A DNA stretch of 64,000 nucleotides, taken from Psychrobacillus sp. FSL H8-0483 (GTDB lineage Bacteria; Bacillota; Bacilli; Bacillales_A; Planococcaceae). The position numbers were made by a program, and so were the translations under genes. The notes beneath the pieces are model-generated. The model did not search any database, had not been told where the DNA came from, and saw only the letters and a list, made by a program, of their open reading frames with translations. Shown one piece after another: positions 15,347-20,417 of the stretch (the first letter of the stretch is position 1; every line of letters begins with the position of its first letter). The stretch lies in contig NZ_CP152052.1 in assembly GCF_038637725.1 (NCBI RefSeq), positions 1,905,501-1,969,500 of the forward strand, written 5' to 3'.

Positions 15347-16024
15347 ATGATAAAAAAAATAGTCACAATTGCATTACTCATGATGATTCTAATTGCTTCT
15401 GGCTGTTTCGGAAATGAACAAAACAAACAACAAATACAACAGGGATTACTCACTGTCGCTGATCCTGAAAGTATCACCGTTCTTGTCAACAAACAATATG
15501 CTTTTCCGGAAGGCTATGAACCGAAAGAGCTCGTTTACCCAAATGTTCCATTTATATTTAATGAAAAAATAGAAAAAAGAATGATGAGAGAAGAAGCAGC
15601 GAAGTATCTCGAAAAAATGTTCCATGCGGCGAATAAGCAGAATATTCATCTAGCAGGTGTTTCAGGCTACCGTTCTTCTCAAACTCAAACAGTCCTATTT
15701 AATAATTATGTTGAAAAAGATGGAATCGAAAAAGCAAAAACATATAGTGCTGTTCCTGGAACAAGCGAACATCAATCAGGATTAGCAATTGACGTTAGTG
15801 GATCCGATGGTTCTTGTGCAGTAGATGACTGTTTCGCGAATACAGAAGAGGCAGCATGGCTTGAAGATAACGCCCATAAATATGGATATATCATTCGCTT
15901 TCCAAAAGACAAAGAAAATATTACCGGTTACCAATATGAACCATGGCATATTCGTTATGTTGGTGTAAATTTAGCCACTGAGTTATTTAATAAAGGGTTA
16001 ACATTAGAAGAATATTATGAGTAG
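15347..16024 (+). CDS. VanY/YodJ-type D-alanyl-D-alanine carboxypeptidase lipoprotein (225 aa)
   Basis: ATG 15347 follows GAGGAG. The N-terminus MIKKIVTIALLMMILIASGC ends in a lipobox (IASGC), so it is a membrane-anchored lipoprotein. The peptidase M15B zinc site is complete: GTSEHQSGLAIDV (H-x6-D) and EPWHIRYVG (catalytic H), with the substrate region SGYRSSQTQ. It removes terminal D-Ala from peptidoglycan stem peptides. A CAVDDC pair between the motifs is also common in this family. A second M15B paralogue follows at 16184 after a terminator. Confidence 0.92.
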   Translation: MIKKIVTIALLMMILIASGCFGNEQNKQQIQQGLLTVADPESITVLVNKQYAFPEGYEPKELVYPNVPFIFNEKIEKRMMREEAAKYLEKMFHAANKQNIHLAGVSGYRSSQTQTVLFNNYVEKDGIEKAKTYSAVPGTSEHQSGLAIDVSGSDGSCAVDDCFANTEEAAWLEDNAHKYGYIIRFPKDKENITGYQYEPWHIRYVGVNLATELFNKGLTLEEYYE

Positions 16025-16183: not shown

Positions 16184-17065
16184 ATGAAAAAGTGGGGCTT
16201 TTTATTAATTTTTGCAATATGTTTGGGTGTAACAGCCTTTAAGATAGTACCGTTATTTCAAGGTGAAAAAGTTGTAATAGTTGAGAATGGTATAGTGGAA
16301 GGTAAGGTGTCTTCTGGAAATATAAAAAAAGTAGAAATTCCAGTAGAACAAATTTATCAAGGAAATTTACTTTTGGTCAACAGTAAGCATCCAGTTCACA
16401 ATGAAGGTATAAAATCAGATGTCATCAATTTATATGCTCGCAAAGAATTGGTAAAAGGATACAGAGTGTTTAATAGCGAGACATATTTATCAGAAGATAT
16501 AGAAAGTAAATTTTCGGATATGGTTCTTGATGCGGAAGAAGATGAAGTTTCTAGTTTTTTTATTACGAGTGGTTTTCGAGGATTTGATGAGCAAACTAAA
16601 CTTTATAAAGATATGGGTTCCAATCGTGCCTTGCCAGCAGGTTACAGCGAACACAATTTAGGTTTATCGCTTGATGTGGGAAGTACCCAAGGTAAGATGG
16701 AGGTAGCACCTGAGGGAAAGAGAAAGTGGATTGCAGAGAACGCTTGGAAATACGGATTTACTCTACGTTATCCAGAGGATAAAACGGACATAACGGGAAT
16801 TATGAATGAACCATGGCATATCCGCTATGTCGGTTTACCACATAGTGCGATTATGAAAGAAAAGAATTTTGTTTTAGAGGAATATTTAGAATATCTAAAA
16901 GAACAAAAACATATTTCTGCTACTGTAAATGGTCAAAAATATGAGGTCTTTTATTATCCTGTTACTGAAAATACCACTATTAATGTTCCAGCCAATCTTC
17001 GTTATGAGGTATCGGGCAATAATACGGATGGTGTGATTGTGACAGTATTTCCTGATAACGTGTAG
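16184..17065 (+). CDS. membrane-anchored M15B D,D-carboxypeptidase with C-terminal extension (293 aa)
   Basis: An uncleaved N-terminal anchor (WGFLLIFAICLGVTAFKIV, residues 3-22) is followed by a β-rich stretch to about residue 90. The M15B domain then has SGFRGFDEQTKLY, GYSEHNLGLSLDVGS and EPWHIRYVGLPH. An extra C-terminal domain of about 60 residues (ISATVNGQKYEVFYYPVTEN to the end) is absent from the first paralogue. Like VanY it should trim D-Ala from stem peptides outside the cell. A small Cys-rich ORF follows ten bases later. Confidence 0.9.
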   Translation: MKKWGFLLIFAICLGVTAFKIVPLFQGEKVVIVENGIVEGKVSSGNIKKVEIPVEQIYQGNLLLVNSKHPVHNEGIKSDVINLYARKELVKGYRVFNSETYLSEDIESKFSDMVLDAEEDEVSSFFITSGFRGFDEQTKLYKDMGSNRALPAGYSEHNLGLSLDVGSTQGKMEVAPEGKRKWIAENAWKYGFTLRYPEDKTDITGIMNEPWHIRYVGLPHSAIMKEKNFVLEEYLEYLKEQKHISATVNGQKYEVFYYPVTENTTINVPANLRYEVSGNNTDGVIVTVFPDNV

Positions 17066-17255: not shown

Positions 17256-17330
17256 AGTTACCCACTCAGAGTGAGTGAACACGGTCATATTTTGGTACGT
17301 TTTATTATCTCTTGTTCTAACTAAAACTAA

Positions 17331-17367
17331 ATTAACCCCATCCATTTATCATATGGATGGGGTTAAT
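17331..17367 (-). terminator. perfect 15-bp inverted repeat, likely terminator
   Basis: ATTAACCCCATCCAT and ATGGATGGGGTTAAT are exact complements with a 7-base loop. On the minus strand the stem is followed by a T-rich TTAGTTTTAG, so it fits the end of the minus-strand sigma operon; the + side has little T-run. Confidence 0.65.
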
Positions 17368-17402
17368 TATGATACATGTAATAAGTTAACTTTAACTTCA
17401 AA

Positions 17403-17600
17403 TTATAAAACCAATTCCTCTCCTAAAAAGTCGAAAAAGCCAGGGACTTCTTGCAAAATGTTATTTTGAATTATTTTAATAATACGTTCTTTTAAATCTT
17501 GTTCTAAGTCTTCTCGATATTCGTTGCTTGTTTGAAATAGTACGCTTCGCAGTTTAGGTTCTAGCTGTTTTAATATTGACAGAATATGCGTTTCGTCCAT
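17403..17600 (-). CDS. small protein resembling sigma region 2 (RsoA-like) (65 aa)
   Basis: A 65-residue protein, last gene of the sigma cluster. Its central part NEYREDLEQDLKERIIKII recalls the R-E-D-L-x-Q-x-L helix of sigma-70 region 2. No DNA-binding region 4 is present. In Bacillus subtilis the sigma-O system consists of SigO (region 4) plus a separate small RsoA subunit resembling region 2, together with YvrJ; this cluster has the same three components. RsoA-like function is therefore inferred from context and weak similarity. The protein is soluble. Confidence 0.55.
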   Translation of the reverse strand: MDETHILSILKQLEPKLRSVLFQTSNEYREDLEQDLKERIIKIIQNNILQEVPGFFDFLGEELVL

Positions 17601-17609
17601 TTTTTCCCC

Positions 17610-17774
17610 TCACTTTCTTTTTTCAATGTTATTGTTCACAACATTCGTAATACTGTGAATGGCATTTTCAAGTGATTCAATTTTATTTTCGAAACGATGT
17701 AAGAGATAGATAGTAACGACAATTGGAAAGCCAAAGTTGCCAATTAATTGTACGATGTTCCCTTCATCTAGCAT
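17610..17774 (-). CDS. yvrJ: YvrJ family small membrane protein (54 aa)
   Basis: The minus-strand frame from ATG 17774 reads MLDEGNIVQLIGNFGFPIVV followed by TIYLLHRFENKIESLENAI. This is the characteristic YvrJ pattern (QLIGNxGFPIxVTxYLLxRxExKxxxL): one membrane helix and a short amphipathic tail. It overlaps the end of the sigma-factor gene by 11 bases and precedes the 65-residue gene by ten, so all three are translationally coupled. YvrJ function is unknown but it is genetically linked to sigma-O-type systems. Confidence 0.85.
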   Translation of the reverse strand: MLDEGNIVQLIGNFGFPIVVTIYLLHRFENKIESLENAIHSITNVVNNNIEKRK

Positions 17775-18282
17775 AAGTAAGCTCCTTTCTAATATATTTA
17801 ATTACATTTCTTCTTGTCTTTGAAACAGCTTGTTGCGTTATTCCTAACCGTTGTGCAATTTCTTTATCTGTCATTTCCTTAACGAAAACAAGTGAAAGTA
17901 TTTCCTTTTGTCTATCTGTAAGTTTTCTTAAACATTTAAATAAGTTTTCACTAGTTATATGATCCACAATGTCTCCAGAAAGACCAATTGAATCTGCAAA
18001 AGCTTTCTCATGGTAAATTGGAAACATATCCAAATTACTTTCAAGTGTTAGTTGGTTTCTATCCCGATAAGAACGCATCTTTTGGTCAAAATGTTTACTC
18101 TCAAAGTGTAAAACCTTTATTAGATAAGATAAGATTCTAAAATTTTGGTAGAATTTCTTAAATTCCAAATCAATGAGTAATTTTATCTCTTCAGAATTGG
18201 TTTTTTTAAACTCATCCAATAGAGATCTGTTTGCAGGGCATTTTAGGAACTCTTGAATTATTTTCTGCTTTTCGCCATTCAT
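17764..18282 (-). CDS. sigma-70 family (sigma-O-like) RNA polymerase sigma factor (172 aa)
   Basis: Start ATG 18282 behind GGAGGAG. The C-terminal third is a sigma region 4 helix-turn-helix: CLRKLTDRQKEILSLVFVKE, then MTDKEIAQRLGITQQAVSKT with RRNVIKYIRKEL. The N-terminal part is helical, with the FYQNFRILSYLIKVLHFESK and HFDQK stretch common to SigO-like factors; a canonical core-binding region 2 is not obvious. This fits a split sigma in which the 65-residue partner supplies region 2. A perfect 14-bp palindrome (TCTTAAGCTTAAGA, 18348-18361) lies in its upstream region and may be an operator. Confidence 0.85.
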   Translation of the reverse strand: MNGEKQKIIQEFLKCPANRSLLDEFKKTNSEEIKLLIDLEFKKFYQNFRILSYLIKVLHFESKHFDQKMRSYRDRNQLTLESNLDMFPIYHEKAFADSIGLSGDIVDHITSENLFKCLRKLTDRQKEILSLVFVKEMTDKEIAQRLGITQQAVSKTRRNVIKYIRKELTYAR

Positions 18283-18912
18283 TTTATCACTCCTCCACAA
18301 ATAAGAATCTACGTTCTGATTTAGCGTGTGAAAAGTAATGTTTTATTTCTTAAGCTTAAGATATATCTTGTCCTATAAAGGGGATTTGATAGGTTTTTTT
18401 ACAACTACTTTTCAGTTAAATCGTAATAAAATTAAAATTTTTATTGACATTTGCAATATTTTTTGATTATGTGTGCGGAAAGCTGTTCCACTTGCTTGTT
18501 TCCTTGTCCTAAAAGTTTAGGCTAGGTTAATGAATCATTAGGTGTAGGTATTTCTTTGATCATAATCCGATTAAATTGATTAAAACTTTTTGATAGTATA
18601 ACTGGAAAAAAATATAATTTCTTTCCTAAATATTACTAAAAAAATTGTGCTATTAGAACATAAATAAGTTGGGAAATATCCTAAAATAATTACATATAAT
18701 TGCTTCTAACTTCTTTGGATTTCTTGTAATGTGGAAAATTTAATAATATTTATTAATTTTAGGATAAAGAGCGTTTTTTTAATTGATAATTTTCTTTCGC
18801 CATACATATGATTTTATATACTAACTGTCGGTTGATGTCGAACGAATGATAAAGGTATTTTAACTTTTTTACAGAATTATTAAATGTACTACGTTCAAAG
18901 AGGTGGAGAAAA
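18283..18912. other. divergent intergenic region between sigma cluster and RRNPP regulator
   Basis: 630 bases of AT-rich DNA without an ORF. It contains the 14-bp palindrome at 18348-18361 and a TTGACA at about 18445. Promoters for both directions must lie here; I cannot place them precisely. Confidence 0.45.
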
Positions 18913-20214
18913 ATGAGTAGTATTGGTCATATCATAAAACAAGAGCGATTAAACCAGAATATCAAACAGAACGTATTGGCAAAGGGAATTTGTTCAACAT
19001 CCTACCTCAGTAAAATTGAAAATAACGCAACTGTTCCAAGTGAAGAAGTACTAATGTTTTTGCTAAAAAGACTAAATTTAGAGATAGTAAATGTGCCAAA
19101 TGAAGACGAGGTACTAGTTGCTTTTTATGAATTGTATAAAAACGCAATCATAAAGAGGAATAAGAAATTAATCCGAGCATCGTTGCATAAGTTCACTAGT
19201 CAAAAGACCTACTTTTTGCAATTGAAAAATTACTATACCTATCATCTATATATGTTTCGACTCCAGTTAGTCCTTAATGAAGAGATGGATAACCTACAGC
19301 CCTCTTATCATGTAATGAAGCAAATGGAAAATGATTTAGACAACAAGCAAAAATTTATGATGAATTTAAATCTAGGTCTGTATCATTATTTAAATGGAGA
19401 TTATACAAAAGCATTAGGTCGTTTAGAGAGTTCGCTAAAATTCATTCATCATGTATCAATAGAAGAATGGGAGTTGGCAGATTATTACAATGTGCTTAGT
19501 TTGACCTATTTTTATTGCAATGAATTTTTTAACGCCATTAATTATGCATCCAAATCATTGCTCTACTATAAGGACAATCTCTTATTTGAAAGAGCAATTG
19601 ATAGTTACATCGTTATAGGTATGGCACATAAAAAAATGAGAAAATATGAAGAAGCAGAGAGGAACTATTATTTAGCAAAAAAGTTGGCAATAGACTACAG
19701 ACTATTTCATTATGAGGGGGTGATTTATCAAAATCTCGGTTCATTACATGCAATACAAGATAGGCATGTGAAGGCAATTGAGTTTTATAAGCTTAGTTTA
19801 AAAAGCAAAGAGGGTAACAATAATGCAGAAGGATCTTTGATAACTATTCTTTCGATAATAAAGGAGTATTCTAAGCAGAATAACCATGTGGAAGTCCTTG
19901 AATGGTGTAAAAGAGGTTTTAAGGCAATGGAAGAAATAAATACTAAACATAATATAGAAAATCCATCCTATTATTGTCACTTAGAGATATATAGAGCTCT
20001 CCATTCATCAACAGATGACATTGAATTCGTATTAAAGAAAAGTATAAACCATTTCGAAATGGTCGATGACGATCGACACGTACAAAAGTATTCCATTGTA
20101 TTGGCAAATTATTACTTTAAGCAAAAAAAGTTTAAAGCAGCTGATTTGTATTATCAAAAATCAATTAAAATATTATTTAAACAAAAATTTATTAACCAAT
20201 GGGAGGATTTATAA
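18913..20214 (+). CDS. XRE-TPR peptide-responsive regulator, RRNPP type (433 aa)
   Basis: ATG 18913 after AGAGGTGGAG. Residues 5-60 form an XRE helix-turn-helix (IGHIIKQERLNQNIKQNVLA, STSYLSKIENNATVPSEE). The rest is a chain of tetratricopeptide-like helical pairs (for example LGLYHYLNGDYTKALGRLES, MAHKKMRKYEEAERNYYLAK, LGSLHAIQDRHVKAIEFYKL). Length and layout are those of NprR/PlcR-class receptors, which bind re-imported signal peptides with the TPR domain and switch transcription. The stop is immediately followed by a small secreted-peptide gene, the standard arrangement of such pairs. Confidence 0.88.
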   Translation: MSSIGHIIKQERLNQNIKQNVLAKGICSTSYLSKIENNATVPSEEVLMFLLKRLNLEIVNVPNEDEVLVAFYELYKNAIIKRNKKLIRASLHKFTSQKTYFLQLKNYYTYHLYMFRLQLVLNEEMDNLQPSYHVMKQMENDLDNKQKFMMNLNLGLYHYLNGDYTKALGRLESSLKFIHHVSIEEWELADYYNVLSLTYFYCNEFFNAINYASKSLLYYKDNLLFERAIDSYIVIGMAHKKMRKYEEAERNYYLAKKLAIDYRLFHYEGVIYQNLGSLHAIQDRHVKAIEFYKLSLKSKEGNNNAEGSLITILSIIKEYSKQNNHVEVLEWCKRGFKAMEEINTKHNIENPSYYCHLEIYRALHSSTDDIEFVLKKSINHFEMVDDDRHVQKYSIVLANYYFKQKKFKAADLYYQKSIKILFKQKFINQWEDL

Positions 20215-20346
20215 ATGAAAAAGAAAAGTGTTCTATTATGGTTGTGTGTAGCAGTGATATTCAGCTTTCATATGACAACTAACACAAGTAATACTATGGA
20301 AGAAGAAGGCCCTAGACCAACTGGTATAGACCATTCTTATATTTGA
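20215..20346 (+). CDS. candidate signalling-peptide precursor (43 aa)
   Basis: ATG 20215 directly follows the regulator stop; GGGAGG (20201-20206) lies inside the regulator's last codons. The peptide has a Sec-type N-terminus MKKKSVLLWLCVAVIFSFHM, a short polar spacer rich in T/N/S, then EEEGPRPTGIDHSYI at the C-terminus. Size, signal and gene order match NprX/PapR/Phr precursors, whose last 5-8 residues become the mature signal after processing. The likely active part lies within RPTGIDHSYI. A strong terminator follows. Confidence 0.8.
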   Translation: MKKKSVLLWLCVAVIFSFHMTTNTSNTMEEEGPRPTGIDHSYI

Positions 20347-20373: not shown

Positions 20374-20417
20374 AAAAAAGTAATCCATCGATTTGTACAA
20401 GATGGATTACTTTTTTT
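20374..20417 (+). terminator. strong Rho-independent terminator
   Basis: AAAAAAGTAATCCATC pairs with GATGGATTACTTTTTTT around an 11-base loop; it closes the regulator-peptide operon and could also stop the opposing membrane-protein gene. Confidence 0.9.

Follow-up and report, generated by a model that had tools for sequence, protein, structure and literature searches.

It was found that a receptor gene and a propeptide gene of the RRNPP type lie end to end in Psychrobacillus sp. FSL H8-0483, and that the pair probably lets crowded cells turn on the divergent yvrJ gene and, in many species, a two-part sigma factor along with it. The analysed DNA (hereafter the window) is a stretch of 64,000 nucleotides from this strain, and its features are listed in Table 1. 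What can be read from the DNA itself is the presence and conservation of the two genes, the core of the peptide, the fold predicted for the receptor, the constant position of yvrJ beside it in the genus, and the geometry and direction of an element facing yvrJ.

Table 1. Positions of the features in the window (position 1 is its first nucleotide).
Feature	Position	Strand	Basis or remark
RRNPP-type receptor gene	18913..20214	+	433 aa, HTH plus 9 TPRs; Pfam, profile, AlphaFold2 model, structural matches
Propeptide gene	20215..20346	+	43 aa, Sec-type, zero spacing after the receptor stop codon
Predicted pheromone core E-G-PRPTGI in the propeptide	20305..20328	+	best-conserved part of the tail, 18 orthologues; mature ends putative
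GGGAGG in the last receptor codons, likely ribosome-binding site of the propeptide	20201..20206	+	sequence
Terminator hairpin, 16 pairs, then T run	20374..20416	+	folding -19.5 kcal/mol, z -6.05
47-nt conserved element TTTCCCA...TTCTAA...TTAGTAATAT, facing sigO/yvrJ	18630..18676	-	proposed receptor-controlled promoter
sigO-proximal promoter-like site GTTGT-N19-CCTTTATA	18374..18405	-	upstream of sigO in 11/11 sigO-bearing loci
SigH-like promoter of the pair, AAAGGTATT-N11-ACAGAATTA	18851..18879	+	common position in 18/18 loci
Spo0A-box-like TGTCGAA	18836..18842	+	no mismatch in the window and L094, 1-2 in each of the remaining 16 loci
sigO-like sigma factor gene	17764..18282	-	Sigma70_r4 above the Pfam cut-off; at the locus in 11/18
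yvrJ, 54 aa, holin-like profile match	17610..17774	-	PF12841 66.9 bits, cut-off 29.5; 18/18 loci
RsoA-like gene	17403..17600	-	NF041489 and NF010682 matches below cut-off; 11/18 loci
Terminator after the sigO-yvrJ-rsoA cluster	17330..17368	-	pattern scan

The first-pass annotation had described a 433-residue XRE-TPR receptor followed without spacing by a 43-residue precursor of the secreted type, and both were confirmed from the ORFs and Pfam. HTH_3 and TPR_12 scored above the Pfam cut-offs in the receptor ORF; the N-terminal HTH and the C-terminal TPR superhelix of an RRNPP receptor were thus found by Pfam and in the structural model. The ATG of the propeptide at 20215 directly abuts the TAA stop codon of the receptor (20212-20214), and TGGGAGGAT is retained at this junction in L001 and L003-L020. 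The propeptide starts with KKK, continues with a hydrophobic stretch and the tail EEEGPRPTGIDHSYI, and ends with RPTGIDHSYI; its export signal was judged from the KKK start and the hydrophobic stretch. The strong terminator said to be shared by the two genes was also found (20374-20416), but it lies outside the annotated span of 18913-20346. A generic terminator pattern scan (loops of 3-8 nt) missed this hairpin, whose loop is 11 nt. The assignment of the two genes as an RRNPP-type receptor/propeptide pair is supported by Pfam, conservation, coding constraint, and profile and structure matches.

Is the pair common in the genus? I compared 19 Psychrobacillus genomes, namely the 4.14-Mb genome of the window and 18 others. 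The receptor was found in 18 of the 19, the window's included, and the 17 others are 60-74% identical to it. G004 is the only one of the 19 genomes searched that gave no receptor match, and no YvrJ-family match and no sigO match were found in it. The word "orphan", once applied to the pair, therefore does not suit it, since 18 of the 19 genomes have the pair, each time beside yvrJ. A small ORF with an export signal adjoins the receptor gene in 18/18 orthologous loci; it begins 0 or 1 base past the receptor stop codon in all of them, and its start codon is ATG, GTG, or TTG. Conservation of this ORF had been set beforehand as a test, and it was kept in 18/18 under coding constraint. Across the 18 orthologues, the mean pN/pS was 0.50 for the propeptide, 0.29 for its core, and 0.27 for the receptor, as against 0.88 and 1.21 for the two wrong frames of the propeptide DNA; these means come from non-independent pairs, the core comprises only 8 codons, and synonymous change is almost saturated. 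G018 has a second copy of the pair (L020, on the 27-kb contig G018:C22), 51% identical and with the core PRPTF, which may have come from either duplication or transfer. It was excluded from the orthologue and pN/pS counts.

A search of genome contigs with the single receptor protein gave no relative, and a second search, using the receptor alignment, gave 48 loci. In a quick receptor tree, 28 forks stayed open and some branches, that of NprR included, were long, so it was used for supported clades only. These are a clade of seven sigO-less species (support 99) and a clade of solo receptors (support 99).

The divergent sigma-O-like cluster that had been noticed earlier is present: Sigma70_r4 and YvrJ are over the Pfam cut-offs, and the RsoA-like match is below its cut-off. 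The yvrJ product exceeds the gathering score of PF12841, and its residues 6-52 match phrog_4898, annotated as phage holin (E 2.7e-8, 35 bits). Judging from this similarity to an annotated family, YvrJ would be a small holin-like membrane protein. As for the two parts of the sigma factor, the region-4 protein is over the Sigma70_r4 cut-off, and the RsoA-like ORF matches NF041489 (RsoA) with 36.3 bits at E 4.2e-9, under the model cut-off of 100, and NF010682 at E 4.2e-14, also below cut-off. The yvrJ gene is divergent from the receptor gene in 18/18 loci and is the only constant neighbour in the window, and the sigO- and rsoA-like genes are at 11/18 loci and absent from one 7-species clade. Because these seven loci form a single supported clade, one loss is suggested. 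The sigma-O-like cluster had been put forward as a possible target of the receptor. It is a likely target, as both the neighbour and the element described below are conserved, but since sigO and rsoA are missing in 7/18 loci, the target is better described as yvrJ.

How far does this coupling extend? No yvrJ, sigO, or rsoA was found in the flanks examined of the second pair copy in G018 (L020; L041, L108) or of a MAG receptor (L040, 56% identical, core LPRPTEV). Thus, even close to the genus clade the coupling has exceptions. Beside the receptors of other genera, no convincing yvrJ or sigO was found in 105 loci (best E 0.08, many flanks 1.5 kb). Judged from these loci, the yvrJ link belongs to the main Psychrobacillus orthologues and not to the receptor family. 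The downstream genes of the VC0807 family, MerR, GNAT, and ileS were rejected as parts of the system; they are near the receptor in 4, 3, 8, and 8 of the 17 other loci, respectively, some of them several kb off. Second sigO-like genes, 35-43% identical, were found in G001:C12, G005:C2, G014:C13, G015:C1, and G016:C8, with a yvrJ match alongside in G001, G015, and G016 and a weak one with a stop codon in G005. The window also has two tandem VanY-type D-alanyl-D-alanine carboxypeptidase genes (15347-16024 and 16184-17065) over the Pfam cut-off.

Between the divergent genes lies a 47-nt element, TTTC[CA]CA...TTAGTA(TAAT or ATAT), whose geometry and orientation towards yvrJ/sigO are the same in 16/18 loci by a strict pattern and in 18/18 by a relaxed one. 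In the seven sigO-less loci, 161-175 nt separate its end from yvrJ; where sigO intervenes, the distance is 682-855 nt. The element can be read by eye as a promoter with a -10-like TAATAT or TATAAT and a poor -35, TTCTAA, 17 nt away; a generic promoter scan listed none at this place. An inverted repeat search of 18560-18730 found none, which argues against a palindromic operator at the element. In the 19 genomes, the bipartite strict TTTCCCA form gave 21 matches, 14 at the locus and 7 elsewhere (reversed control, 5). For the element core, 14 of 17 matches were at the locus and 3 outside it, against 1 in the reversed control. The genome of the window itself has one strict match, at the locus. 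A broad regulon was rejected because the outside matches are close to the control counts; I prefer a site specific to the locus, and a degenerate regulon is possible. In the case of NprR-NprX, binding to a region over the -35 of nprA has been reported (PMC4147580).

Two further promoter-like sites flank the element. The GTTGT-N19-CCTTTATA site was also found before the second sigO copies in G005 and G014; of its 23 matches, 10 lie in other places, compared with 8 in the control. It fits a possible SigO autoregulation as in B. subtilis. On the other side, the SigH-like promoter of the pair, assigned by what I take to be the SigH consensus, lies 60-69 nt upstream of the receptor start in 18/18 loci, with no more than 2 mismatches in 16/18. 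This match is equalled by no more than 5% of shuffles in 13/18 loci and by 7-31% in the other 5, where it is weak. TGTCGAA was likewise assigned by what is presumably the Spo0A-box consensus.

The extreme C-terminal tail of the propeptide had been suggested as the signal. This was not borne out: the last residues vary, so the extreme tail is not supported, and the conserved part is an E-x-PRPTSI core (PRPTGI in the window). The search for conserved tails in homologues, proposed at the same time, was fruitful in that PRxT was found in 18/18 Psychrobacillus orthologues. PRPT occurs in 16/18, the exceptions being PRITSN and PRVTSN (L014, L015), and the residues downstream of the core differ in both sequence and length. 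It had also been stated that the tail is unlike the known signals. The core is indeed not a known one, but it is less isolated than was thought, since its homologues grade towards SKPDIVG, the NprX signal as confirmed by mass spectrometry (PMC5641580). Against SKPDIVG, the window has PRPTGI, and the intermediates are in other genera. They include LPRPTEV in the MAG locus L040, LPRITSI and IPKITSI in Paenisporosarcina, LPGIVSI (L182), LPDILSI (Oceanobacillus halophilus, L054), and LPDITSS (L218), and a second Psychrobacillus system has KPEITSI and KPKITSV. SEPDHPKIV is present in three copies in the propeptides of Metabacillus and Peribacillus loci. Less similar cores also exist, such as the PKLFKT and PKVFKT types in one genus. 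Thus, the window peptide appears to be a new pherotype and to stand at one extreme of a series reaching NprX, with the likeness judged by eye. Tandem core repeats in related propeptides (five in L021, three each in L059, L061, and L062) fit a processed peptide.

Some of the related receptors seem to lack a peptide partner. No convincing peptide ORF was found after the receptors in Viridibacillus, Rummeliibacillus, and Kurthia loci; these and one further relative make up the solo clade of 13 (L049-L051, L053, L055-L058, L065, L070, L074, L075, and L200). Paenisporosarcina-type genomes have tandem receptor pairs (L045-L048, L052, L184, and L189), and no convincing peptide ORF of its own was seen for the upstream receptor of the tandem pair. 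This receptor may listen to the peptide of its downstream partner.

The receptor was then compared with NprR and Rap. A profile of the orthologues matched Rap3T (E 1.6e-12) and NprR 4gpk (1.8e-8) among the solved structures, with designed TPR proteins of similar or better E-values between the two, and phmmer with the single receptor did not list NprR at E 1 among the same structures. The AlphaFold2 model of the receptor (pLDDT 90.2, pTM 0.81) has an HTH and 18 further helices, which make up 9 TPRs, and the HTH plus 9 TPRs of the NprR subfamily are thus predicted. In a structural comparison, RapI (Z 32.2) and NprR apo (5dbk_B, Z 32.1) were the leaders, followed by peptide-bound NprR (Z 27.5) and, next, LGN TPR proteins at 26; Foldseek likewise ranked Rap and NprR chains at the top. 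The receptor and NprR apo superpose with an rmsd of 3.1 A over 348 residues at 16% identity. The known-cluster rule of RRNPP_detector is given as at least 30% identity over 80% coverage (PMC10075063), and the receptor falls short of it against NprR, with 16% over 348 aligned residues of the TPR part. In a survey, NprR is reported from 21 genera (PMC9765709).

The NprR residues reported to be required for function (PMC4970707) were compared in this low-identity alignment. All of the Spo0F contacts are changed (D107 to Q103, Y118 to M114, E188 to L188, and Y223 to L223), as are residues of the peptide site (R126 to N122, W167 to Y164, H201 to Y201, N306 to a gap, and D309 to I310) and the Y165-R343 lock (G162 and T344 in the receptor). 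As for the oligomer residues in the same low-identity alignment, F225 (tetramer) is kept, Y410 (dimer) is kept as Y414, and N407 (dimer) is D411. Since the Spo0F-contact residues are changed, Spo0F phosphatase activity is not expected, and I expect the receptor to be a transcription factor without it. Like NprR-NprX of the Bacillus cereus group, the system has an HTH plus 9-TPR receptor of related predicted fold followed by a 43-aa Sec-type propeptide, a core comparable by position (x-P-x-I/P-T/V-S/G), and a SigH-like promoter, a SigH-type one being reported for nprX (PMC4147580). In contrast, the receptor here is 16% identical, the Spo0F contacts and the surroundings of the peptide lysine are not kept, the core is PRPTSI instead of SKPDIVG, and one local target is proposed instead of at least 41 genes. 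The TPR fold and the receptor-propeptide order are common to Rap-Phr as well. However, Rap is described as lacking an HTH and acting on proteins (PMC9765709), whereas the receptor here has an HTH and no Spo0F contacts.

With modest confidence, I favour a cell-density switch of the RRNPP type that serves its own neighbour, in which the peptide-bound receptor would activate the divergent cluster with YvrJ as the constant output. The SigH-like promoter leads one to expect that the receptor-propeptide operon is expressed on entry into the stationary phase. The precursor would be exported by Sec and processed to a peptide centred on PRPTGI, or on PRPTSI in most of the genus, and the mature peptide, by the precedent of the family, would be re-imported and bound in the TPR superhelix of the receptor. 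The peptide-bound receptor may then act at the 47-nt element, which spans the poor -35 region of the leftward promoter, and so activate the sigO-yvrJ-rsoA cluster. Where present, SigO-RsoA would work as a two-part sigma factor, probably amplifying its own operon via 18374-18405. A bolder version is conceivable, and I hold it tentatively: the circuit would be dedicated to YvrJ, with the PRPTSI pheromone and the receptor controlling essentially one promoter, and a dense population would make cells permeable, lyse a fraction of them, or release a product. The sigma factor would then be a self-amplifying relay present in 11/18 species and lost in the 7-species clade, which keeps the switch and the output. 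A density-triggered membrane event of this kind, suggested by the similarity of YvrJ to a holin, is the boldest reading that the data allow.

Would the peptide activate the leftward promoter or relieve its repression? In AimR and Rgg3, the free receptor represses and the peptide releases, and the same sign might apply here. The conservation of the element and of the neighbour is equally compatible with either sign, which the sequence does not give. Repression by the free receptor seems rather unlikely, though, as the poor -35 of the leftward promoter fits an activator and NprR, the nearest solved DNA-binding relative, is reported to be a peptide-dependent activator (PMC4970707). A little less likely still is that the main targets of the receptor are elsewhere in the genome, and that the element is used for transcribing the neighbours by SigA/SigO or for control of the receptor itself. 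In favour of this, the regulon of NprR in B. thuringiensis is reported to comprise at least 41 genes (PMC4147580), exact patterns would miss a binding site that is degenerate, and the pair occurs without yvrJ in L020 and L040. Against such distant targets, the divergent yvrJ and the element are fixed in 18/18 loci, and the matches of the element outside the locus are near the control level.

The NprR/Rap-like predicted fold and the retention of NprR F225 and Y410 might recall a bifunctional NprR, whose free form would also dephosphorylate Spo0F and delay sporulation. With 0/4 of the NprR Spo0F-contact residues kept in the low-identity alignment, I consider this highly improbable. It is equally hard to believe that the small ORF encodes a small membrane protein or a translated leader instead of a pheromone precursor. 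Its shortness, hydrophobic N-terminus, and varying start codon would suit such a product, but it varies least in the charged core of the tail, and the tandem core repeats of related propeptides fit a processed peptide.

RRNPP pairs are a known kind of system. ComR is a receptor from another branch of the RNPP family. It is a precedent for a receptor peptide that induces a sigma factor, since in streptococcal ComR-ComS the peptide XIP (comX/sigX-inducing peptide) is reported to lead to an alternative sigma factor (PMC5131891), and a parallel has been drawn between sigma-X with ComW and SigO-RsoA (PMC7218084). Unlike in ComR-ComS, the constant neighbour here is yvrJ, and 7/18 loci lack the sigma factor. 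In B. subtilis, SigO-RsoA is reported to transcribe yvrJ, oxdC-yvrL, and its own operon (PMC8103513). The sigO-, rsoA-, and yvrJ-type genes are shared with that species, but here the three are in one divergent cluster and adjoin a peptide receptor. The accessible part of the literature on SigO-RsoA contained no report of an RRNPP partner or a quorum-sensing link. Nor did the literature, as far as it was accessible, contain anything on RRNPP or peptide quorum sensing in Psychrobacillus or on NprR in Planococcaceae, although the supplements of two surveys (PMC10075063, PMC9765709) may list the receptor. What appears to be new is the pherotype, the missing Spo0F residues of NprR, and the constant association with yvrJ, whether or not a two-part sigma factor is present. 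The results provide a concrete, testable pheromone (PRPTSI/PRPTGI) and receptor for Psychrobacillus and link a possible density signal with YvrJ and SigO-RsoA. The clade that keeps the promoter element and yvrJ without sigO/rsoA is a natural experiment on the real output gene, and the core series from PRPTSI to SKPDIVG, with its receptors, is material on how RRNPP receptors change signal specificity.

The second NprR-like system of Psychrobacillus (L002, L021-L030) resembles the window's in that the propeptide ORF lies at the receptor stop codon and the core is KPEITSI/KPKITSV. In contrast, its receptor is 29% identical to that of the window and on a separate branch of the tree, and its upstream motif is different. 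No yvrJ match was found in the 19.9-kb locus of this system in the window's own genome (L109). In L024 (G001), the small ORF ends at an early stop codon and the receptor is intact. The propeptide of L021 (G009, minus strand) has five tandem (A)IQDKPD/EITSINK units, and those of the other genomes have one core. Upstream of the receptor in most of the 11 loci, conserved inverted arms GAAAGT/ACTTTC about 35-40 nt apart were seen by eye.
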